A stretch of DNA of 64,000 bases from Polaribacter septentrionalilitoris (GTDB lineage Bacteria > Bacteroidota > Bacteroidia > Flavobacteriales > Flavobacteriaceae): contig NZ_VRMJ01000014.1 in assembly GCF_009832745.1 (NCBI RefSeq), forward strand, positions 310,001-374,000, written 5' to 3'. Made by a program: the position numbers and the translations under genes. This document shows, piece by piece, positions 39,394 to 55,023 of this stretch (its first letter is position 1; each line of letters starts with the position of its first letter). The notes beneath the pieces were generated by a model. The model had not been told where the DNA came from and searched no databases. It saw only the letters and a list, made by a program, of their open reading frames with translations.

Positions 39394-39993
39394 CTATTTG
39401 TGTCTACCTTTTAATTCTGCTTCAATATCTTTTAAAGTGAAACCTTTAGCTTGTAGTAACATTAAATAATGAAATAGTAAATCTGCAGATTCATATAGAA
39501 ACAATTCATCGTTATTATCCATAGCTTCGATGACCGTTTCTACAGCCTCCTCTCCTACTTTTTGAGCCACTTTGTTAATTCCTTTTGCAAATAAACTAGC
39601 TACATAAGATTTTTTTGTGTCTTTATTCTCAACACGTTCTTTAATTACATTTTCTAAGGTTGAAAAGAATCCAAAATTCGAATTATTTTCTTCGTTCCAA
39701 CAAGTATCTGAACCTTTATGACAAGTTGGCCCTTTTGGATTCACCTGAATTAACAAAGTATCATTATCGCAATCTAGTTTCATATCCACTAAATTCAACA
39801 CATTTCCACTTTCTTCACCTTTTGTCCATAACCTGTTTTTAGTTCTACTAAAAAAAGTTACCAAATACGTTTCTTTGGTTTTGTTAAAAGCCTCTTCATT
39901 CATATACCCTAACATTAAAACGTTTTTTGTTGTTGCATCTTGAATGATTGCTGGCACTAAACCATCGTTATTTTTATTAAAATTGATATTCAT
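39394..39993 (-). CDS. hisI: Bifunctional phosphoribosyl-AMP cyclohydrolase / phosphoribosyl-ATP pyrophosphatase
   Basis: HisIE, 199 residues, catalyses steps 2 and 3 of histidine synthesis. The N-terminal cyclohydrolase (~1-105) has TKGEESGN, DCDNDTLLIQV and the zinc-binding PTCHKGSDTCW. The C-terminal pyrophosphatase (~108-199) has the VGEEAVETVIEA helix and ESADLLFHYLMLL with the acidic metal ligands. The frame extends 20 codons upstream through spacer repeats (VDRLNKNQKLKTNNKK), but ATG 39993 (MNINFNKNNDGLVPAI) matches the family start. Last gene of the operon, 83 bases after hisF with a palindromic spacer. Confidence 0.96.
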   Translation of the reverse strand: MNINFNKNNDGLVPAIIQDATTKNVLMLGYMNEEAFNKTKETYLVTFFSRTKNRLWTKGEESGNVLNLVDMKLDCDNDTLLIQVNPKGPTCHKGSDTCWNEENNSNFGFFSTLENVIKERVENKDTKKSYVASLFAKGINKVAQKVGEEAVETVIEAMDNNDELFLYESADLLFHYLMLLQAKGFTLKDIEAELKGRHK

Positions 39994-40076
39994 TTTGTTT
40001 GGTTTTTTGTTGTTGGTTTTTAGTTTTTGGTTCTTATTCAAACGATCAACCACAAACCAACAACTATAAACTATTG
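39994..40076. repeat. Palindromic intercistronic repeat, hisF-hisIE
   Basis: On the plus strand gttgttggtttttagtttttggtt (about 40009-40032, positions of the arm) and aaccacaaaccaacaac (about 40049-40065) form a long imperfect hairpin. Related G/T-rich arms with A/C-rich partners recur in the hisA-hisF and hisB-hisH gaps. Confidence 0.45.
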
Positions 40077-40832
40077 TTATATTCTTACAGGCACTCCCTG
40101 TTTTTGTAATTCTTGTTTTAACTCTAAAATAGGAATTTCACCAAAGTGAAACACACTTGCTGCTAATGCTGCATCCGATTTTCCTTTGGTAAATGTATCA
40201 ACAAAATGCTGCACAGTTCCTGCACCTCCAGAAGCAATAATAGGAATATTTACCAATTCTGATAAATGTGCCAAGGCTTCATTTGCAAAACCAGCTTTAG
40301 TTCCATCATGATTCATAGAAGTAAACAAAATCTCTCCTGCTCCACGTTGTTCTACTTCTTTTGCCCAATCAAAAAGCTTTATTTCTGTAGGAATTGTTCC
40401 TCCAGCTAAATGCACAAACCATTCTCCATCAATTTGTTTTGCGTCAATGGCAACTACCACACATTGACTTCCAAATTTGTCTGCCAATTCACTTACCAAT
40501 TCTGGTCTTTTTACTGCAGATGAATTTATAGATACTTTATCAGCACCACATTTTAACAATGCATCTACGTGCTCTACAGAAGATATTCCTCCTCCAACTG
40601 TAAACGGAATGTTTACTTGTTCTGCCACTTTTAATACCATATCTAAAGTGGTTCCTCTATTTTCTAAAGTAGCTGCTATGTCTAAAAAAACCAGCTCATC
40701 TGCTCCTAAATCTGCATATTGTTTTGCCAAAACAACTGGATCTCCTGCATCAATTAAATTTACAAAATTGACACCTTTTACAGTTCTTCCGTTTTTAATA
40801 TCTAAGCAAGGTACTATTCTCTTTGTTAACAT
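40077..40832 (-). CDS. hisF: Imidazole glycerol phosphate synthase, cyclase subunit
   Basis: 251-residue TIM barrel that takes ammonia from HisH and turns PRFAR into IGP and AICAR. Catalytic aspartates are in [14 protein letters not shown] (Asp11) and VVAIDAKQ (~Asp130); phosphate loops are FTVGGGIS and IIASGGAGT. The open frame continues 23 codons upstream through the intercistronic repeat, but ATG 40832 ([11 protein letters not shown]) is the family start. Follows hisA by 69 bases. Confidence 0.97.
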
Positions 40833-40834
40833 TT

Positions 40835-40901
40835 TATTTTGTTGTTGGTTAGTGGTTTTTGGTTGTTGGTTTAGGTTAAAATAATAACCAAACACTAACA
40901 A
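40835..40901. repeat. Palindromic intercistronic repeat, hisA-hisF
   Basis: Arms gttgttggttagtggttttt (about 40841-40860) and aaccaaacactaacaac (about 40887-40903) make an imperfect hairpin of the same kind as in 39994-40076. Confidence 0.4.
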
Positions 40902-41660
40902 CTATAAACCATCAACTATATAATTTTCTAATTGTTTTAAGCTGATTTTATTCTCATAAATTGCTTTTCCAATAATCACACCTTCACAACCTAATGCTGC
41001 TAATTTTGGCAATTCATCAAAAGTGGATATTCCTCCTGAAGCGATTAGTTTTAAAGACGTTTCCACAGGCTCAACGTGACATTCGTTAAGTATTTTTGAA
41101 TACGTTTCAAAACTAGGGCCTTGTAACATACCATCTTTAGAAATGTCTGTACAAATTACATATTGAATTCCTTTTTGTTGATAATCAGCAATAAACGGAA
41201 TCAATTCTAAACTACTTTCTTCTTGCCAGCCATTGGTAGCTATCTTTCCTCCTGAATTATCAGGATAAAAATCGGCACCTAAAATAATTTTTTCTGCCCC
41301 GAATTTGGTAATCCAACTTTTAAAAACCTCAGGATTTTTTACAGCAATACTGCCTCCAGTAATTTGATTGGCTCCAGAATTAAAAGCAATTTCTAAATCT
41401 TTATCAGCCTTTAACCCACCACCAAAATCAATTTTTAAATTGGTTTTCGTTGCAATTTGCTCTAATACTTTATAATTAATTATTTGACTTGCTTTGGCAC
41501 CATCTAAATCTACAACATGCAAATATTCAATACCTGCAGCTTCAAATTCTTTGGCAACTTCTAATGGGTTTTCATTATATATTTTCTTGGTATTGTAATC
41601 GCCTTTGGTTAAACGAACACATTTACCTTCTATAATATCTATGGCTGGAATTATTCTCAA
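40902..41660 (-). CDS. hisA: ProFAR isomerase with a REP-derived insert
   Basis: Phosphoribosylformimino-5-aminoimidazole carboxamide ribotide isomerase, step 4 of the pathway, a (beta/alpha)8 barrel of 252 residues. Asp8 in IPAIDIIEG, the CVRLTKGDY segment, DFGGGLK and GADF are as expected. The start is a TTG (41660), since family members begin MRIIPAIDI and no ATG is near. Odd feature: between the helix SFETYSKIL and strand LKLIASGG the peptide [10 protein letters not shown] (~193-202) is encoded by a half of the dispersed palindromic repeat, read in frame. It lengthens the protein by about nine residues in a surface loop and should be tolerated. Catalytic residues are intact. Confidence 0.95.
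41059..41082. repeat. REP-like half-element inside hisA
   Basis: On the plus strand ttccacaggctcaacgtgac (41061-41080) aligns with the arms at 4587-4607 and 14858-14878 (shared GCTCAA, two or three variable bases, GACA). In the hisA frame it encodes CHVEPVET. Confidence 0.6.
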
Positions 41661-41686
41661 AATAGTTTTTAGTTTTTAGTTTAATT

Positions 41687-41732
41687 GTTCTCGATACAAT
41701 TTTTCGTTCCTCAAAATCACTCGAACTGACAG
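41687..41732. repeat. Dispersed repeat, copy 2 (GTTCTCGA...ACTCGAACT type)
   Basis: gttctcgatacaattttt at 41687-41704 and atcactcgaactgacag at 41716-41732, in the hisH-hisA gap. Same bracket as the degenerate copy at 5626-5671. Confidence 0.5.
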
Positions 41733-41735
41733 TAT

Positions 41736-42317
41736 TTATAAATTCAAGAAGTTTTCTAAAATTTTACTTCCTGCAAGAGATGATTTTTCGGGGTGAAACT
41801 GCACTCCATAAAAATTATTATTCTGTAATGCAGATGCATACTCAATTTCATAATCTGTTTTGGCAATCATATCATCGCATTTTTCTGCATAAAAACTATG
41901 TACCAAATACATAAACTCTTTTTCTTTAATGTCTTTAAATAAATCAGATTTTAAGTCAGCAATTACATTCCAACCCATTTGTGGCACTTTAACCTCATTA
42001 GAAAAACGTTTTACAGCCACATCAAAAATACCTAAACCTTGGGTGTTTCCTTCTTCTGAATGGTTACACATTAACTGCATTCCTAAACAAATGCCTAAAA
42101 CGGGTTGTTTTAATGTAGGTATCACTTTGTCTAAGCCACTTTCTTGTAACATTTTCATAGCAGAACTTGCTTCTCCAACTCCTGGAAAAATTACTTTATC
42201 AGCAGCTTTAATTTCATCAACATTATTTGTTAAAACAGCATCAATACCTAAACGCTTAAAAGCAAATTGAATGCTTTTAATGTTTCCTGCTCCATAATTT
42301 ATAATCACTAATTTCAT
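41736..42317 (-). CDS. hisH: Imidazole glycerol phosphate synthase, glutaminase subunit
   Basis: 193-residue class I glutamine amidotransferase that feeds ammonia to HisF. The nucleophile cysteine is in VLGICLGMQLM (~Cys76) and the His-Glu pair is in VQFHPEKS (~173-180). The oxyanion strand KVIFPGVGEA is present. Separated from hisA by 75 bases containing a dispersed repeat, from hisB by 77 bases with another palindrome. Confidence 0.97.
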   Translation of the reverse strand: MKLVIINYGAGNIKSIQFAFKRLGIDAVLTNNVDEIKAADKVIFPGVGEASSAMKMLQESGLDKVIPTLKQPVLGICLGMQLMCNHSEEGNTQGLGIFDVAVKRFSNEVKVPQMGWNVIADLKSDLFKDIKEKEFMYLVHSFYAEKCDDMIAKTDYEIEYASALQNNNFYGVQFHPEKSSLAGSKILENFLNL

Positions 42318-42394
42318 TTTTCTATTGGTTTTGGTTGATAGTTTTTGGTTGATGGATCAAAAAAAACTAACGACTAAAAATTATCATCTGTCAA
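42318..42394. repeat. Palindromic intercistronic repeat, hisB-hisH
   Basis: G/T-rich arm gttgatagtttttggttgat (about 42337-42356) faces the A/C-rich arm aactaacgactaaaaattat (about 42365-42384), an imperfect hairpin similar to those before hisF and hisIE. Confidence 0.4.
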
Positions 42395-43531
42395 CTAAAG
42401 AAGTCCTTTTGTAGATGGTAAAAACATCTTATTAGCATCTCTTTTTACTGCCATTTTCATTGCTTTTGCAAAAGCTTTAAAAATGCCTTCTATTTTGTGA
42501 TGTTCATTTACACCTTCTGCTTTAATATTTAAATTACATTTTGCACCATCTGTAAACGATTTAAACAAGTGAAAAAACATTTCTGTTGGCATATCTCCAA
42601 TTTTTTCTCTCTTGAATTCTGCATCCCATTCCAACCAATTTCTTCCTCCAAAATCTACAGCAACTTGTGCTAAACAATCGTCCATAGGCAAGCAAAAACC
42701 ATATCTTTCAATACCTAATTTATTACCTAAAGCTTTGTTGAATAATTCACCAAAAGCAATCATGGTGTCTTCTATAGTATGATGCTCATCAACCTCTAAA
42801 TCTCCATCTACTTTTATGGTCAAATCCATATTTCCATGACGCCCTATTTGGTCTAACATATGATCGAAAAAAGACAATCCTGTACTGATATCATTTTTAC
42901 CAGAACCGTCTAAATTTAATTTGATATAAATCTTTGTTTCATTGGTATTTCTGGTGATTTCTGCAACTCTATCTTCTAATTTTAAAAATTGATAAATTTC
43001 TGACCAATCTGTACTTGTTAAAGCAATGCAATCAAGAACCTCTTGTTTTGAAGTTTCAATTTCGTCTGCACCTAACTCTGGATTTTCAGACAAATAAATT
43101 CCTTTTGCGCCTAAATTTTTAGCCAATTCCATGTCTGTAATTCTATCACCTAAAACAAAAGAATTTTCTAAATCATATTCCTCAGAAAAATAGTTGGTTA
43201 ACAAACCTGTTCTTGGTTTTCTGGTTTCAGCATTTTCATGCGGAAAAGTTTTATCTATATGAACTGCCGAAAAAACAACGCCTTCTTTTTCAAAAGCAGC
43301 AATAATTTTATTTTGAGCTGGCCAGAAGGTGTCTTCTGGAAAAGAATCGGTTCCTAAACCATCTTGATTGGTAACCATTACCAATTCGTAATCCAATTCT
43401 GAGGCTATTTTAGCCATGTATTGAAAAACTTTTGGATAATATTCTAACTTTTCTAAACTATCTAATTGATAATCTACAGGTGGTTCTAACACTAAAGTTC
43501 CGTCTCTATCTATAAATAATACTTTTTTCAT
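42395..43531 (-). CDS. hisB: Bifunctional histidinol-phosphatase / imidazoleglycerol-phosphate dehydratase
   Basis: 378-residue fusion for steps 6 and 8. The N-terminal HAD phosphatase (~1-165) starts with [14 protein letters not shown], where the two aspartates are nucleophile and acid/base, and has [11 protein letters not shown] and [13 protein letters not shown]. The C-terminal dehydratase (~185-378) has [23 protein letters not shown] and [14 protein letters not shown] with the manganese-binding histidines. ATG overlaps the hisC stop by one base, so the two are translationally coupled. Confidence 0.97.
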
Positions 43532-44586
43532 TACTGAATTTCCTTTAAAGCTCTTATTAATCTTTGATTTTCTTCACATACTCCAACACTAATTCGCAAA
43601 CAATTTTCACACAAAGGTTGTGTGGTTCTGTTTCTAATTACCACTCCATAGTCTATTAATTGCTTATATCTTTTGTTTGCGTCATCAACCTTTAATAATA
43701 AAAAGTTGCCATCTGAAGGATATACTTTTTCGATATAACTTACACAGCATTCCAACTCTTTTTTTAGACGTTTTCTTTCACTGATAAGTTGCGCAATTTC
43801 ATTTTTAACTTCATTCAACCTTTGCAATCTTGTAATTGCTCTTTGCTGAGTTAATTCATTGACGTTATAGGGAGGTTTGATGTTATTTAATATATTGATA
43901 ATTTCTTTAGAAGCATAACAAACTCCCAATCGAATTCCTGCTAAACCATAAGCTTTAGACAAGGTTTGTGTGATAATTAAGTTAGAGAACTTTTGCAATT
44001 TTTCTAGCCAACTTTTTTGGGTTGAAAAATCAATATAAGCTTCATCAATTACGACTAACCCATTAAACTCTTTTATTAATTTTTCTACAGCTCCATTTGA
44101 AAAACTATTTCCTGTAGGATTATTTGGAGAGCATAAAAAAAGAATTTTACTATTGTTGTCTGCAGCAGCTAAAATTTCATCAACATTAGGCTCAAAATCA
44201 GTATTCAATAAAACCTTTCTGTTTTCAATTGCATTAATATTAGCCAAAACAGAATACATTCCATAAGTTGGTGGTAATGTAATAATATTGTCTTTATTAG
44301 GTTCACAAAAAGCTCTAAAAATAAGGTCTAATACTTCATCACTTCCATTACCCAATAAAATCAGTTCTTTTGGTATTGTTTTAATATCTGATAACAAATC
44401 TTTAACCTTATTTTGTCTCGGGTCTGGATATCGATTTACTCCGTTTTCGAAAGGATTTTCATTCGCGTCTAAGAAAATCATATCTTTTGACGTTGCGTCT
44501 TTATATTCATCTCTAGCTGATGAATATGGTTGTAGAGATTTAATGTTCTCTCTAACTAAATTATTGATGTTAAAGTCTGTTTTCAT
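43531..44586 (-). CDS. hisC: Histidinol-phosphate aminotransferase
   Basis: 351-residue fold-type I PLP aminotransferase, step 7. The PLP lysine is in [16 protein letters not shown], and [31 protein letters not shown] and [10 protein letters not shown] are standard. Starts at ATG 44586, 36 bases after hisD; ends overlapping hisB. Confidence 0.97.
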
Positions 44587-44622
44587 ACTTTAATGACTCC
44601 AAAAGTAGTCTTTTCGTTACAT

Positions 44623-45906
44623 TTATAATACCTCTTTTAAACGCAATGTTACCGCATTTTTGTGTGCTTGTAATCCTTCTGCATCCGCCATTAACTCAAT
44701 TGCATTACCAATAGTTTGAATTCCTTTTTTTGATATTTTTTGAAAGGTAATACTCTTAGTAAAACTATCTAAATTCACTCCAGAATAAGCTTTACTAAAT
44801 CCATTTGTTGGTAAGGTATGATTTGTTCCAGATGCATAATCACCTGCACTTTCTGGTGTATAATTCCCAATAAAGACTGAACCAGCATTTTCTATATTAT
44901 CAATATAAAAATCAGTATCATTTGTACAAACAATAAAGTGTTCAGGACCATATTCATTGATTAACTCTAGCGCAATTTTATCATTTTCTACCAAAATTGA
45001 TTTTGAATTTGCAATTGCCTGTTTCGCAATTTCAACTCTAGGCAAGCCTAAAACTTGTTTTTCAATCTCTTTAGAAACTTCATCAATTAAACTTAAAGAA
45101 GTTGATACTAGGATAACTTGACTATCTACACCATGTTCTGCCTGACTTAGTAAATCTGATGCGACAAAACTCGCTTTAGCAGAATCATCTGCAACAACTA
45201 GCAATTCACTTGGACCTGCTGGCATATCAATAGCAACTCCGTATTTTGTTGACAATTGTTTTGCAACAGTTACAAACTGATTTCCTGGTCCAAAGATTTT
45301 ATAAACCTGTGGAATGGTTTCTGTACCAAAAGTAAATCCTGCAATCGCTTGAATTCCGCCAACTTTAATAATTTTGGTTACTCCACATAAATTAGCTGCA
45401 TACAAAATTGCTGGGTGAATTTTACCTTCTTTATTAGGTGGAGAACACAACACAATTTCTTTACAACCTGCAATTTGAGCAGGAACCGCTAACATTAATA
45501 CTGTTGAGAATAAAGGTGCTGTACCTCCTGGAATGTATAAACCAACTTTTTGAATTGGTCTTTTTTCTTGCCAACATTCTACTCCGTTAGCCGTTTCAAC
45601 AAATACTTTATACGTTTTTTGTGCCTTATGAAAATTGTAAATATTTTCTTTGGCTAATGATATTGCAGATTTTAATTCATCAGAAACTAAACTGATTGCC
45701 TCGTCAATTTCATCTTTAGAAACAATTGTATTATCTATGGTTATTCCATCAAATTTAGCAGTATATTTATTTACAGCTGTATCTCCGTTTTTTTGTATAT
45801 CCTCAAAAATTTGAGTTACTGTAGTTTCAATATCATCAACCGTTTTTGTTGGTCTTTCTAAAATTTGAGACCAATCTTTTTTTAGTGGATTAAGAATTGT
45901 TTTCAT
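44623..45906 (-). CDS. hisD: Histidinol dehydrogenase
   Basis: 427-residue zinc and NAD enzyme that carries out the last two oxidations of histidinol to histidine. Typical segments: VGLYIPGGTAPLFSTVLML (120s), GPGNQFVTVAKQL, DMPAGPSELLVVAD, LLSQAEHGVDSQ with the zinc Gln-His pair, NYGPEH-like NEYGPEHFI with the catalytic Glu-His, and YASGTNHTLPT. One base after hisG. Confidence 0.97.
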   Translation of the reverse strand: MKTILNPLKKDWSQILERPTKTVDDIETTVTQIFEDIQKNGDTAVNKYTAKFDGITIDNTIVSKDEIDEAISLVSDELKSAISLAKENIYNFHKAQKTYKVFVETANGVECWQEKRPIQKVGLYIPGGTAPLFSTVLMLAVPAQIAGCKEIVLCSPPNKEGKIHPAILYAANLCGVTKIIKVGGIQAIAGFTFGTETIPQVYKIFGPGNQFVTVAKQLSTKYGVAIDMPAGPSELLVVADDSAKASFVASDLLSQAEHGVDSQVILVSTSLSLIDEVSKEIEKQVLGLPRVEIAKQAIANSKSILVENDKIALELINEYGPEHFIVCTNDTDFYIDNIENAGSVFIGNYTPESAGDYASGTNHTLPTNGFSKAYSGVNLDSFTKSITFQKISKKGIQTIGNAIELMADAEGLQAHKNAVTLRLKEVL

Positions 45907-45907
45907 T

Positions 45908-46765
45908 TTACAATACCATTTTCTCTATAGGACATACTAAAATACCTTCAGCACCATTAATTTTTAACTCATCAATAATTTCCCAAAATTGATTTTTACT
46001 AATTACAGTGTGTACAGAGCTCCAACCTTCTTGTGCTAATGGTAAAACAGTTGGACTTCTCATTCCTGGCAATAATTTTAAAATGTTATCTAATTTATTG
46101 TTAGGCGCATTTAACAAAATGTACTTAGATTGCCTTCCTTTTAAAACTGATTGAATTCTAAACTGAATTTTTTCTAAAATGGCTTTTCTTTCTTCAGAGA
46201 TTTGAGGAGAAACCGCTAAAACAGCTTCAGATTTTAATAAAACTTCAATTTCTTTTAGGCCGTTTTTAAATAATGTACTTCCACTTGAAACAATATCACA
46301 AATTCCGTCTGCCAAACCAATATTTGGAGCAATTTCTACAGAACCATTAATTTTGTGTAATTGCGCATCTATATTCTGCTCTTTTAAGTATTTTTTTACG
46401 GTTTCTGGGTAAGAAGTCGCTATACGTTTACCATCTAAATCTTTTAATGAATTTGCATCTGATTCTTTAGGTACTGCTATAGAAACTTTACATTTAGAAA
46501 ATCCTAAACGTTCTACAAATTGGATGTCATCTCCTTTTTCTATTAGAACATTTTCACCAATAATGGCTGCATCTACTACTCCGTCTTTCAAATATTGAGG
46601 TATATCTCCATTACGTAAATAAAATACTTCAACTGGAAAATCTCTAGCAGCTGCTTTTAATTGGTCTTTTCCGTTATCTATAGAAATACCAATGTCTTTT
46701 AAGATTCTCATTGAATCTTCATTTAATCTCCCTGATTTTTGTACTGCAATTCTTAAGTTACTCAT
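45908..46765 (-). CDS. hisG: ATP phosphoribosyltransferase (long form)
   Basis: First enzyme of the pathway, joins ATP and PRPP. 285 residues, thus the long, HisZ-independent form with a C-terminal regulatory domain (~210-285) where histidine inhibits. RIAVQKSGRLNEDS, DAAIIGENVL, ATSYPETVKKYL and the PRPP loop DIVSSGSTLF are visible. The frame is open to a TTG at 46792 inside the leader inverted repeat, but ATG 46765 (MSNLRIAVQKSGRL) is clearly the start. First structural gene of hisGDCBHAF(IE), preceded by an attenuator-like leader, so control is both allosteric and transcriptional by inference. Confidence 0.97.
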   Translation of the reverse strand: MSNLRIAVQKSGRLNEDSMRILKDIGISIDNGKDQLKAAARDFPVEVFYLRNGDIPQYLKDGVVDAAIIGENVLIEKGDDIQFVERLGFSKCKVSIAVPKESDANSLKDLDGKRIATSYPETVKKYLKEQNIDAQLHKINGSVEIAPNIGLADGICDIVSSGSTLFKNGLKEIEVLLKSEAVLAVSPQISEERKAILEKIQFRIQSVLKGRQSKYILLNAPNNKLDNILKLLPGMRSPTVLPLAQEGWSSVHTVISKNQFWEIIDELKINGAEGILVCPIEKMVL

Positions 46766-46782: not shown

Positions 46783-46834
46783 GTTTGAGCAAATTTGGTT
46801 TTAAATTAAAAAAACCCGTTCGATTTGCTCAAAC
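46783..46834. repeat. 12-bp perfect inverted repeat spanning the his terminator loop and hisG 5' region
   Basis: gtttgagcaaat (46783-46794) and atttgctcaaac (46823-46834), 28 bases apart. On the transcript the first-transcribed arm is the loop and part of the 5' arm of the leader terminator, the second arm lies 17 bases before the hisG ATG. Confidence 0.85.
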
Positions 46835-46840
46835 GGGTTT
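46806..46840 (-). terminator. his leader terminator (attenuator)
   Basis: On the minus strand AAACCCGTT (46840-46832), an 11-base loop and AACGGGTTT (46820-46812) form a 9-bp stem followed by a run of T. It lies between the His-rich leader peptide and hisG, where a terminator makes sense only as a regulated one. Confidence 0.8.
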
Positions 46841-46870
46841 ATAAATATCTTGATTTTATTCAATACATTT

Positions 46871-46924
46871 CTAAATCGCTTGAGAGCAATTGTAAAAATG
46901 ATGATGATTTTGAATAAAAGTCAT
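46871..46924 (-). CDS. hisL: his operon leader peptide (three consecutive His codons)
   Basis: ATG 46924 to TAG 46871 encodes 17 residues, MTFIQNHHHFYNCSQAI, with codons 7-9 all CAT (His). It lies about 12 bases after the expected transcription start and upstream of a terminator hairpin and hisG. The stretch 46889-46877, starting nine bases after the last His codon, can pair with 46835-46825 (ttgctc-tc-aagcg with cgtttgagcaa, 11 pairs including one G-U and a 2-base bulge) and thereby break the terminator. A ribosome waiting at the His codons would leave that segment free (read-through); one that reaches the stop codon would cover it (termination). Symbol given by analogy of role with the enterobacterial hisL; the peptide itself is not homologous in an obvious way. 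Confidence 0.75.
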   Translation of the reverse strand: MTFIQNHHHFYNCSQAI

Positions 46925-46942
46925 GTCTTTGTTATTATGTTG

Positions 46943-46974
46943 CAAATATCTATAATTTATTGGTTAAAAACCAA
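46943..46974 (-). promoter_or_regulatory. Putative his operon promoter
   Basis: Minus-strand TTG (46974-46972), 21-base spacer, GATATTTG (46950-46943), seven of eight positions of TAnnTTTG. Transcription would begin near 46936, just ahead of the leader peptide. Confidence 0.5.
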
Positions 46975-52843: not shown

Positions 52844-55023
52844 TTTGCAACTTCATTAATAAATTTAATTCGCATTAAACGCAATTCATCTTCATCATAA
52901 TCACCATCAAATTCATCTAATGCTTCTTGAATATTGTCTGTTTCTGCATCCATAAAATAATCATGAATTTCTTCTTGCTGATCTTCGTCTAATAATTCAT
53001 CTAAAGCATAATCGATATTAATTTTAGTTCCAGAAAAAATAATTCTTTCCATTTCTTTAATCAACTCACTCATTTCTAACCCTTTCGATTTAGCAATATC
53101 TTCTAGAGGTAATTTTTTATCAGTATTCTGAATTACAAATAACTTTAATCCAGAGTTAACACCAGTACTTTTTACAATTAAATCATCTGGTCTTAAAATA
53201 TCGTTTTCATCAACATAAGTTGCAATTAATTTAACAAAATCTCTACCAAATTTTCTAGCTTTACCTTCTCCTACTCCATGAACTTTAGATAATTCTTCTA
53301 AAGAAATAGGGTATTTTAAAGCCATATCATCGATAGAAGGGTCTTGAAAAACAGCAAAAGGAGGAACACCTTGTCTTGAGGCTACTTTTTTACGTAAATC
53401 TTTTAATAATTTCACCAACTTTTCATCAGCTGCACCACCTGCAGATTTTGAATTTGTAATGATTGAGTTATCATTTTCTTCATTGTACTCATGATCTTCA
53501 GTCATCATAAATGAAGTTGGGTTTTCAATGAAATTTTCACCTTCTTTAGTCAACTTAATTACTCCATATTGTTCAATCTCTTTTCGAATTAAGTTAACCA
53601 CCAAAACCTGACGAATTAAAGCCATCCAATAAGATGCTGAGTGGTCTTTACCAATTGCAAAGAAAGGTTGTAGATGTGTTTTATGAGATGTTAATAAGGC
53701 ATTTTCTTTCCCTATTAAAGTATTTACAATTTCTTTGGCTTTATATTTTTGAAGTGAATCTTTGATTACTTTTAATAACCTAATGACATCATCTTTGGCT
53801 TCGTGTTTCTTTTTGGGATTACGAGAATTGTCATCCATATCAGCACCTTCACCGTTTTTCTCATCAAATTCTTCACCAAAATAATGCAATAAATATTTAC
53901 GTCTGTTCATAGAAGTCTCTGCATAACCAACAACTTCTTGTAATAAAGCATGACCAATTTCTTGTTCTGCTACAGGTTTGCTAGACATAAATTTTTCTAA
54001 CTTTTCAATATCTTTATATGAATAGAAAGCTAAACAATATCCTTCTCCATCATCACGTCCTGCTCTACCTGTCTCTTGATAATAACTTTCTAAACTTTTA
54101 GGAATATCATGATGAATTACATAACGAACATCTGGTTTGTCAATTCCCATACCAAAAGCAATAGTAGCTACCACTACATCACAATCTTCCATCAAAAACA
54201 TATCTTGATGTTTTACTCTAGTTTTAGCATCTAAACCTGCATGATAAGGCACTGCTTTAATACCATTGACTTGTAATATCTGTGCAATTTCTTCAACTTT
54301 TTTTCTACTCAGACAATAGATAATTCCTGACTTTCCAATTCTTTGTTTTACAAACCTAATAATATCTTTTTCTACCTCTTTTGTTTTAGGTCTAACCTCA
54401 TAAAATAGATTAGCTCTATTAAAAGAAGCTTTAAATCTGTTAGCATCAGTAATTCCTAACGTTTTTAGAATATCTTCTTGTACCTTTTCTGTTGCAGTTG
54501 CTGTTAAACAAATCACTGGCACATTATCAATGGCTTTAATTATGTGTTTTAAATTTCTGTATTCTGGTCTAAAATCGTGACCCCATTCAGAAATACAATG
54601 TGCTTCATCAATGGCAACAAAAGAAATTTTTTGAGTTCTTAAAAAAGTAACATATTCCTCTTTTATTAGAGATTCTGGAGCTACGTATAATAATTTTGTA
54701 ATACCATTTGCAATATCTTCTTTAACCTGACTAATTTCTGTTTTGTTTAAAGAAGAATTCAGCACATGGGCTACACCATTATCTTCTGAAATACCACGAA
54801 TTGCATCAACTTGATTTTTCATTAAGGCAATTAGAGGTGAAACCACAATTGCAGTACCTTCTTTCATTAAAGCTGGTAATTGGTAGCAAAGAGATTTACC
54901 ACCACCCGTTGGCATAATTACAAAAGTGTTATTATTACTAACGATACTTTTAATTACTTGCTCTTGTAACCCTTTAAACTTAGTAAAGCCAAAGAATTTT
55001 TTTAGAGGACTATATAAATCCAT
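52840..55023 (-). CDS. recQ: ATP-dependent DNA helicase RecQ
   Basis: 727-residue 3'-5' helicase for recombination repair. Walker A MPTGGGKSLCYQ (Lys43), DEAH motif AIDEAHCISEWGHDFRPEY (in two parts), helicase C lobe with TIAFGMGIDKPDVR and YYQETGRAGRDD, a winged-helix RQC region, an HRDC domain (~525-605; FAVFQDPSIDDMALKYP, VHGVGEGKARKFG) and a highly acidic extra tail (~665-727). The zinc-binding cysteines of classic RecQ are not evident: the region after AGRDD reads MNRRKYLLHYFGE without the four Cys. ATG 55023 is preferred over TTG 55050. Confidence 0.93.
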   Translation of the reverse strand: MDLYSPLKKFFGFTKFKGLQEQVIKSIVSNNNTFVIMPTGGGKSLCYQLPALMKEGTAIVVSPLIALMKNQVDAIRGISEDNGVAHVLNSSLNKTEISQVKEDIANGITKLLYVAPESLIKEEYVTFLRTQKISFVAIDEAHCISEWGHDFRPEYRNLKHIIKAIDNVPVICLTATATEKVQEDILKTLGITDANRFKASFNRANLFYEVRPKTKEVEKDIIRFVKQRIGKSGIIYCLSRKKVEEIAQILQVNGIKAVPYHAGLDAKTRVKHQDMFLMEDCDVVVATIAFGMGIDKPDVRYVIHHDIPKSLESYYQETGRAGRDDGEGYCLAFYSYKDIEKLEKFMSSKPVAEQEIGHALLQEVVGYAETSMNRRKYLLHYFGEEFDEKNGEGADMDDNSRNPKKKHEAKDDVIRLLKVIKDSLQKYKAKEIVNTLIGKENALLTSHKTHLQPFFAIGKDHSASYWMALIRQVLVVNLIRKEIEQYGVIKLTKEGENFIENPTSFMMTEDHEYNEENDNSIITNSKSAGGAADEKLVKLLKDLRKKVASRQGVPPFAVFQDPSIDDMALKYPISLEELSKVHGVGEGKARKFGRDFVKLIATYVDENDILRPDDLIVKSTGVNSGLKLFVIQNTDKKLPLEDIAKSKGLEMSELIKEMERIIFSGTKINIDYALDELLDEDQQEEIHDYFMDAETDNIQEALDEFDGDYDEDELRLMRIKFINEVAN

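Follow-up and report, generated by a model that had tools for sequence, protein, structure and literature searches.

A predicted ribosome-mediated his attenuator in Flavobacteriaceae and its relatives, with a covarying pairing element ahead of hisG

Background

The enterobacterial his leader, hisL, carries seven His codons and is followed by a terminator and a mutually exclusive antiterminator. Passages of Naville and Gautheret (2010, PMC2965389) state that, before the Firmicutes case presented there, leader-peptide systems had been shown just in Proteobacteria and Actinobacteria. The parts of an article from 2022 on Gram-positive his regulation (PMC9413887) that deal with attenuators name them in Proteobacteria and some Firmicutes, and the string 'bacteroid' is absent from its main text. 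As treated in these two papers, the his attenuators of Firmicutes combine His leader peptides with a terminator and an antiterminator. For the Bacteroidota, the Bacteroid-trp element (RF01692) was listed in 2010 (Weinberg 2010, PMC2864571), and a Flavobacterium transcriptome article of 2021 (PMC9723704) gives, for Flavobacteriaceae, clues to leader peptides as well as an element at hisG. The latter, located 5' of hisG in Flavobacterium psychrophilum, is described there as transcribed, structured, common to other genera and without an Rfam hit; the passages on this element come without a peptide, a pairing or covariation.

The locus described here lies in a window of 64,000 nt from Polaribacter septentrionalilitoris, the term window referring to this whole stretch. 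It shares with the enterobacterial attenuator (hisL, RF00514) a His run in a short leader ORF, a terminator before hisG and an exclusive antiterminator, and it differs in its smaller number of His codons and in an added helix, 3:5, before hisG. Bacteroid-trp comes from the same phylum and is of the same kind, with a leader ORF and a terminator, but it belongs to trp rather than his, and no counterpart of element 5 was seen in it by eye. Whereas the Firmicutes his attenuators comprise 17 genomes in PMC9413887, the leader is nearly universal in the Flavobacteriaceae studied here. The 5' element of F. psychrophilum hisG is probably the same element as the attenuator described in this work.

Materials and methods

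hisG was found in 30 of 39 relatives and in 250 of 299 genomes from the family; the corresponding figures were 104 of 196 for the order, 87 of 198 for the class and 171 of 198 for the phylum, and 80 named hisG loci were added to these genome sets. The 297 upstream regions analysed (285 distinct) are a subset of the existing ones, and some loci repeat a genome. A set of 100 stretches was chosen non-randomly for spread, and part of the taxon labels was taken from a kinship listing. A leader was accepted by a strict test if it started with ATG, had 8-35 codons and contained HHH or four His within six codons.

Pairing within the family was assessed on an alignment (A1) of 74 out of 131 family loci, which in turn had been chosen from 166 for a spacer of 40-66 nt. 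Loci with inserts before hisG were left out of the pairing and covariation, start-opening, spacing, loop-helix and swap tests on A1, and subsets of this alignment were used for the swap test (67 of 74 loci), the start-opening test (63 loci) and the spacings (57 loci). For comparisons between lineages, which are the better test of the 2:3 pairing, 89 divergent representatives sharing fewer than 30% of their 7-mers were used. The swap test compared closest pairs with different loops, chosen to allow for relatedness.

Results

The features of the locus are listed in Table 1. The gene order behind the leader is hisGDCBHAF-IE, with hisG starting at 46765, and the NCBIfam matches bear out the his operon that had been recognised there from the sequence; the most similar HisG proteins among the named loci come mostly from Polaribacter. 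The promoter-like site TTG-N21-GATATTTG was also read correctly, and it resembles the flavobacterial promoter consensus. Among 155 distinct family sequences, 132 have NA..TTTG 5' of the leader ATG (99 at -23 to -28; dinucleotide shuffles, 53.8).

Table 1. Features of the his leader region in the window
Feature	Position	Strand	Basis
Promoter-like site of flavobacterial type: TTG (46974-46972), 21 nt, GATATTTG (46950-46943)	46943..46974	-	direct reading
Leader-peptide ORF, peptide MTFIQNHHHFYNCSQAI: ATG 46924-46922, stop 46873-46871	46871..46924	-	direct reading
Three His codons (putative sensor)	46898..46906	-	direct reading
Segment 1 (TTGCT), able to pair with segment 2	46885..46889	-	alignment
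Segment 2 (CTCAAGCG, covers the Gln-Ala codons), predicted antiterminator arm	46877..46884	-	pairing with segment 3
Small hairpin between leader stop and terminator	46843..46870	-	84-87% of cells paired
Terminator hairpin (3:4), U tract ending at 46808	46812..46840	-	fold: 12-bp stem, 5-nt loop
Segment 3 with the terminator loop, the stretch for which segments 2, 4 and 5 compete	46823..46835	-	alignment
Element 5 (ATTTGCTCAAAC), 17 nt before the hisG ATG	46783..46794	-	complementarity to the loop and upper 5' arm of the terminator
hisG, first gene of the operon	45908..46765	-	TIGR00070, TIGR03455
hisD, hisC, hisB, hisH, hisA, hisF, hisIE	39394..45906	-	NCBIfam matches

The short leader ORF carries a run of codons for the amino acid that the operon produces, and its 17 codons with three consecutive His codons are present as the sequence-only reading had them. 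By the strict test, a His leader occurs in 161 of 169 family loci, 28 of 34 loci of other Flavobacteriales, 61 of 75 of other Bacteroidia and 6 of 19 from the rest of the phylum; with identical upstream regions removed, the counts are 152/159, 27/33, 60/74 and 6/19, respectively. Allowing a run of two His raises the family count to 166 of 169. Two further leaders with the usual ending were recognised by eye, L117 (HHYFH), whose upstream region equals that of L095, and L144 (HRHH). With L113 left out of the usable loci for its merely 121 nt of upstream sequence, relaxed runs and the two leaders found by eye together give 168 of 168 usable family loci. Relatives with hisG and no His-rich ORF, the cases to which the sequence-only reading had pointed as speaking against it, were absent among the usable family loci, while the loci in which the strict test detected no leader number 6 of 34 in the order, 14 of 75 in the class and 13 of 19 in the phylum. 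Three loci from 600-kb genomes of the order (L214, L218, L219) have kept hisG, and the strict test found no His leader there.

Controls over the 297 hisG upstream regions gave 0/297 for the reverse strand and at most 11/297 for any other amino acid. In 463 kb from 80 named relatives, 75 of the 76 short ORFs with HHH are hisG leaders. The window itself holds two ATG ORFs of 8-35 codons with HHH; one is the hisG leader, and the other lies at 54018 on the plus strand (MNRKLNNILLHHHVLLYLSLDNNFLNF). A plasmid search for the leader gave no match. For the first 139 loci, the longest His run is 3-6 in 121 of 128 distinct leaders, and their His codons are CAT in 510 cases and CAC in 19.

An intrinsic terminator lies between the leader ORF and the first gene. 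It had been described as a 9-bp hairpin with a T-run; the hairpin itself was recovered, and folding enlarges it to the dimensions in Table 1. The 151-nt leader folds at -34.6 kcal/mol compared with -15.8 +- 3.1 for shuffles (z -6.1). On the alignment of 74 family leaders, 99.5% of the cells of the terminator stem are paired. A terminator-like hairpin between leader and hisG was present in 253 of 261 leaders, a raw count from a finder that picks the best hairpin. The small hairpin ahead of the terminator shows changes on both sides at 7 of its 10 pairs in the same 74 leaders and may, as a guess, be a pause or spacer element.

An antiterminator that excludes the terminator can form from the very RNA that would be hidden by a ribosome standing at the stop codon. 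The proposed pairing of 46889-46877 with 46835-46825 can form, with a 2-nt bulge, and it would take seven base pairs from the longer terminator stem instead of the four originally counted. Segment 2 consists of the codons directly 5' of the leader stop and is near-invariant in the family (CA[AG]GCG, Gln-Ala). Covariation of the 2:3 helix within the family is weak because shuffled sequences pair nearly as often (94.4% of cells versus 94.9%); 2 pairs changed on both sides compared with 0.7 for shuffles (79 of 500), and the covariation score was 0.075 compared with 0.068 (11 of 500).

Between lineages, 65 of the 89 representatives have a 2:3 pairing that is better than 95% of shuffles (family 25/25, order 13/18, class 22/40, phylum 5/6), with sequences that differ between lineages (CTCAAGCG:CGTTTGAG, GGTAAGCC:GGCTTGCC and CACCACGGC:GCTGTGGTG among others). 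In 80 of 89 representatives, the helix midpoint falls between -15 and +8 nt relative to where the leader stop ends, while shuffles reach 45.1 +- 4.1 with a maximum of 55, and the helix starts a median of 10 nt past the last His codon. With this position, a stalled ribosome would leave segment 2 free and a terminating one would cover it. Ranked against the segments of other leaders, which is a weaker control, a leader's own segment 2 was among the best 5% in just 21 of 89. In the leaders L044 and L127, the reading frame already ends within segment 2, yet the pairing of this segment is kept, as expected if the RNA and not the peptide end is under selection.

A simple ribosome model, with 13 nt masked from the A site onwards, returned the expected order of states, a result that is partly trivial since less RNA is free at the stop codon; shuffled spacers served as the control. 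With the ribosome on a His codon, the probability that segment 3 is paired upstream was 0.66 compared with 0.43 for shuffled spacers, and it was above the shuffle mean in 84 of 89. For the window, the terminator fold (-38.8 kcal/mol) is far more stable than the forced 2:3 fold (-28.6 kcal/mol), and the switch must therefore be kinetic.

A helix between TTGCT (segment 1) and the terminator loop, part of the sequence-only reading, was rejected as a general feature, since 61% of its cells are paired compared with 66% for a copy slid by three columns; its covariation is weak (0.124 versus 0.079 +- 0.015, 3 of 500 shuffles). Segment 1 is better read as the arm of a predicted local hairpin with segment 2 (TTGC with GCGA), for which 77% of cells are paired and the outer pair shows compensatory changes in the 74 family leaders. 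The energy of this 1:2 hairpin is better than that of shuffles (p<=0.05) in merely 4 of 89 representatives and not significant in the other 85.

Taken together, the comparison between genomes documents the ORF, its His run, the terminator and the 2:3 pairing, and it makes it highly probable that the his leader controls its operon by ribosome-mediated transcription attenuation. The enterobacterial type of logic proposed for it is upheld in its kept parts, the His-run leader, the terminator and the core 2:3 helix, and loses the extra loop helix as a general component. We infer that the leader ORF is translated, that ribosomes stall on it and that the switch responds to histidine. When charged His-tRNA is scarce, the ribosome would stall on the His codons. 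Segment 2, beginning some 10 nt beyond them, would remain free to pair with the emerging segment 3 (the 5' arm of the terminator), and RNA polymerase would read into hisG. With plentiful histidine, the ribosome at the stop codon would cover segment 2, 3:4 would form, and transcription would end near 46808.

A leader that senses a protein or ligand (T-box, riboswitch or RNA-binding protein), with the ORF being incidental, would fit the small hairpin conserved between ORF and terminator. This is very improbable, given that the features kept across the class are the His run and pairing arms set around the stop codon, and given the Rfam results. At the gathering cut-off, Rfam 15 matches two tRNAs in the window and nothing else, with no family on the his leader element. 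The leader stretch has 16 sub-threshold matches (E<=10), the best being the PyrG leader (32.3 bits of 65, E 0.011), and the his leader (RF00514), Bacteroid-trp (RF01692) and T-box models are absent among them. That the terminator merely closes the methyltransferase gene upstream of the leader (48364-47183), which runs in the same direction as the his operon, with the ORF arising by chance, has a negligible probability, as the terminator lies more than 340 nt beyond that gene and behind the promoter-like site and the ORF is found at all usable family loci.

Element 5 is an addition to the sequence-only reading. Next to segments 2 and 4, it is the third segment that can pair with the terminator's 5' arm, and the comparison of sequences documents this 3:5 pairing as well. 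Its conserved core was located in 124 of 185 loci. The six letters 5' of this core match the loop of the same locus in an average of 4.47 positions (32 loop types), compared with 3.38 +- 0.16 after permutation (0 of 10,000). On the alignment, 89.9% of the cells of the 3:5 helix are paired compared with 81.7% for shuffles, the covariation score is 0.316 compared with 0.203 +- 0.008 (slid copies, <=0.094), and 68 cells have changed on both sides compared with 23.4; counted by pairs instead of cells, such double-sided changes do not exceed those in shuffles (6 versus 5.2, 180 of 500). In 33 non-overlapping closest pairs, own pairing was better than swapped pairing in 23, worse in 0 and tied in 10 (sign test, 1.2e-7). 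The control that ranks a leader's own segment among those of other leaders gave 14 of 84 for 3:5. Since its significance by shuffles is high in the family (14/25 representatives) and the order (11/17) and low in the class (5/36) and the phylum (2/6), element 5 is mainly a feature of Flavobacteriales.

Within the stem part of element 5, most of the variation is between A and G or between C and U, which keeps the pairing to U and G. The 3:5 helix therefore seems to include the arm and so would exclude both the terminator and the antiterminator. After read-through in Flavobacteriales, element 5 could thus pair with the same stretch of segment 3, together with the terminator loop, near the hisG start. 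The duplex energy of 3:5 is past -9 kcal/mol in 13 of 19 long-spacer loci and 134 of 173 short-spacer loci. At least four of the loci with inserts before hisG (L002, L041, L045, L068) show no core of element 5, which may accordingly be dispensable.

As a possible function of element 5, a gate acting in cis on hisG translation is favoured, tentatively and at somewhat below even odds, because its distance from the start codon varies little and because the start region is predicted to open when 3:5 forms. In this proposal, element 5 would be free to fold onto the hisG start region while 3:4 is formed, and a 12-bp 3:5 helix replacing the terminator hairpin would leave the A-rich hisG start open. 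The distance to the hisG ATG has a median of 15 nt (IQR 14-16, MAD 1) and that to the terminator a median of 18 nt (IQR 16-22, MAD 3) in 57 loci. The argument is weakened by the preselection of these loci, which had to have a strong duplex and a spacer of 40-66 nt, and by the similar standard deviations of both distances (6.0 and 5.8). The region from -15 to +6 is unpaired with a probability of 0.73 in the 3:5 state compared with 0.64 in the 3:4 state, and it is more open in 38 and less open in 7 of 63 loci. The read-through folds with 3:5 and 3:4 are near-equal in the window (-38.5 and -38.8 kcal/mol), whereas 3:4 has the advantage across 63 loci, with a median difference of 3.3 kcal/mol. According to PMC6847099, structure around the start tunes translation initiation in Flavobacterium johnsoniae, which is consistent with such a gate.

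Pairing between element 5 and the hisG start was rejected as a general feature, as the own start was better than those of others in 37 of 63 loci, a count that also speaks against the gate; loci in which this pairing is strong mostly have a GUACAU or GUAAAU loop. At L148, L149, L155, L157 and GTAAAT-loop loci such as L013, L017 and L060, the terminator loop mimics the hisG start (UGAGUAC, UGAGUAAA), and there element 5 can pair with either.

Element 5 might instead strip the terminator hairpin off the read-through mRNA and thereby alter its stability or processing, with translation unaffected. The mutual exclusion of 3:5 and 3:4, which share nucleotides, would fit this, but the narrow spacing to the hisG ATG in most loci makes it unlikely. 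Quite improbable is an action in trans, in which the loop of the terminated leader RNA would pair with element 5 of the hisG mRNA and lower translation at plentiful histidine. Loop and element 5 do covary, and the short leader RNA would presumably abound under such conditions; against this, the same loop in cis, a few tens of nucleotides away on the target mRNA, should win, and the pairing also takes in the stem part of the arm.

Further leader candidates were noticed in P. septentrionalilitoris. A trp leader candidate (L298:1521-1634) consists of the ORF MKNNTKNTWWWNSLNS and a terminator, with a Bacteroid-trp match of 48.6 bits at a cut-off of 49; the gene behind it is trpE-like (TIGR00564, E 3.9e-124, below the curated cut-off). 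The other two were found by eye. A candidate ilv leader before ilvD (L299:3346-3468, minus strand) has the peptide MKKQILNIISIIVVIVIITT, AGGAAG directly after the stop and then the terminator AACCTTCCTGTAAAATGGAAGGTT. A Phe/Tyr candidate before a prephenate dehydratase gene (pheA candidate; L300:2051-2180, minus strand) encodes the peptide MLNNNFTRFYFYFYFFSKRRDFVSYC, and a stretch within its ORF, GAGACTTT, is complementary to the terminator arm.

Discussion

The his switch is of a known kind, traced here across the class, with a covarying part, element 5, that is new. The novelty at the level of the phylum suggested by the sequence-only reading is not total, given the Flavobacteriaceae element in the passages of PMC9723704 and the Bacteroid-trp family of Rfam, while element 5 is undescribed in the literature searched. 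This search, which covered mostly literature outside subscription, brought up no other account of the his switch for Bacteroidota, nor any of element 5.

For Flavobacteriales, a two-stage switch is conceivable, though rather doubtful as a whole. Segment 3 would first set elongation by its choice between segments 2 and 4, and its capture by element 5 would then set the translation of hisG. Covarying arms such as element 5 often point to a mechanism.

Leader-peptide attenuation requires a ribosome that follows close behind RNA polymerase. The presence of the his attenuator in 61 of 75 Bacteroidia loci outside the order, in conjunction with the trp, ilv and pheA candidates, suggests that ribosome-polymerase coupling at leaders is common in these bacteria. 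Bacteroidota mRNAs are described in PMC6847099 as being without Shine-Dalgarno sequences, and the his attenuator makes the question of coupling at leaders in such a phylum testable with a laboratory strain.
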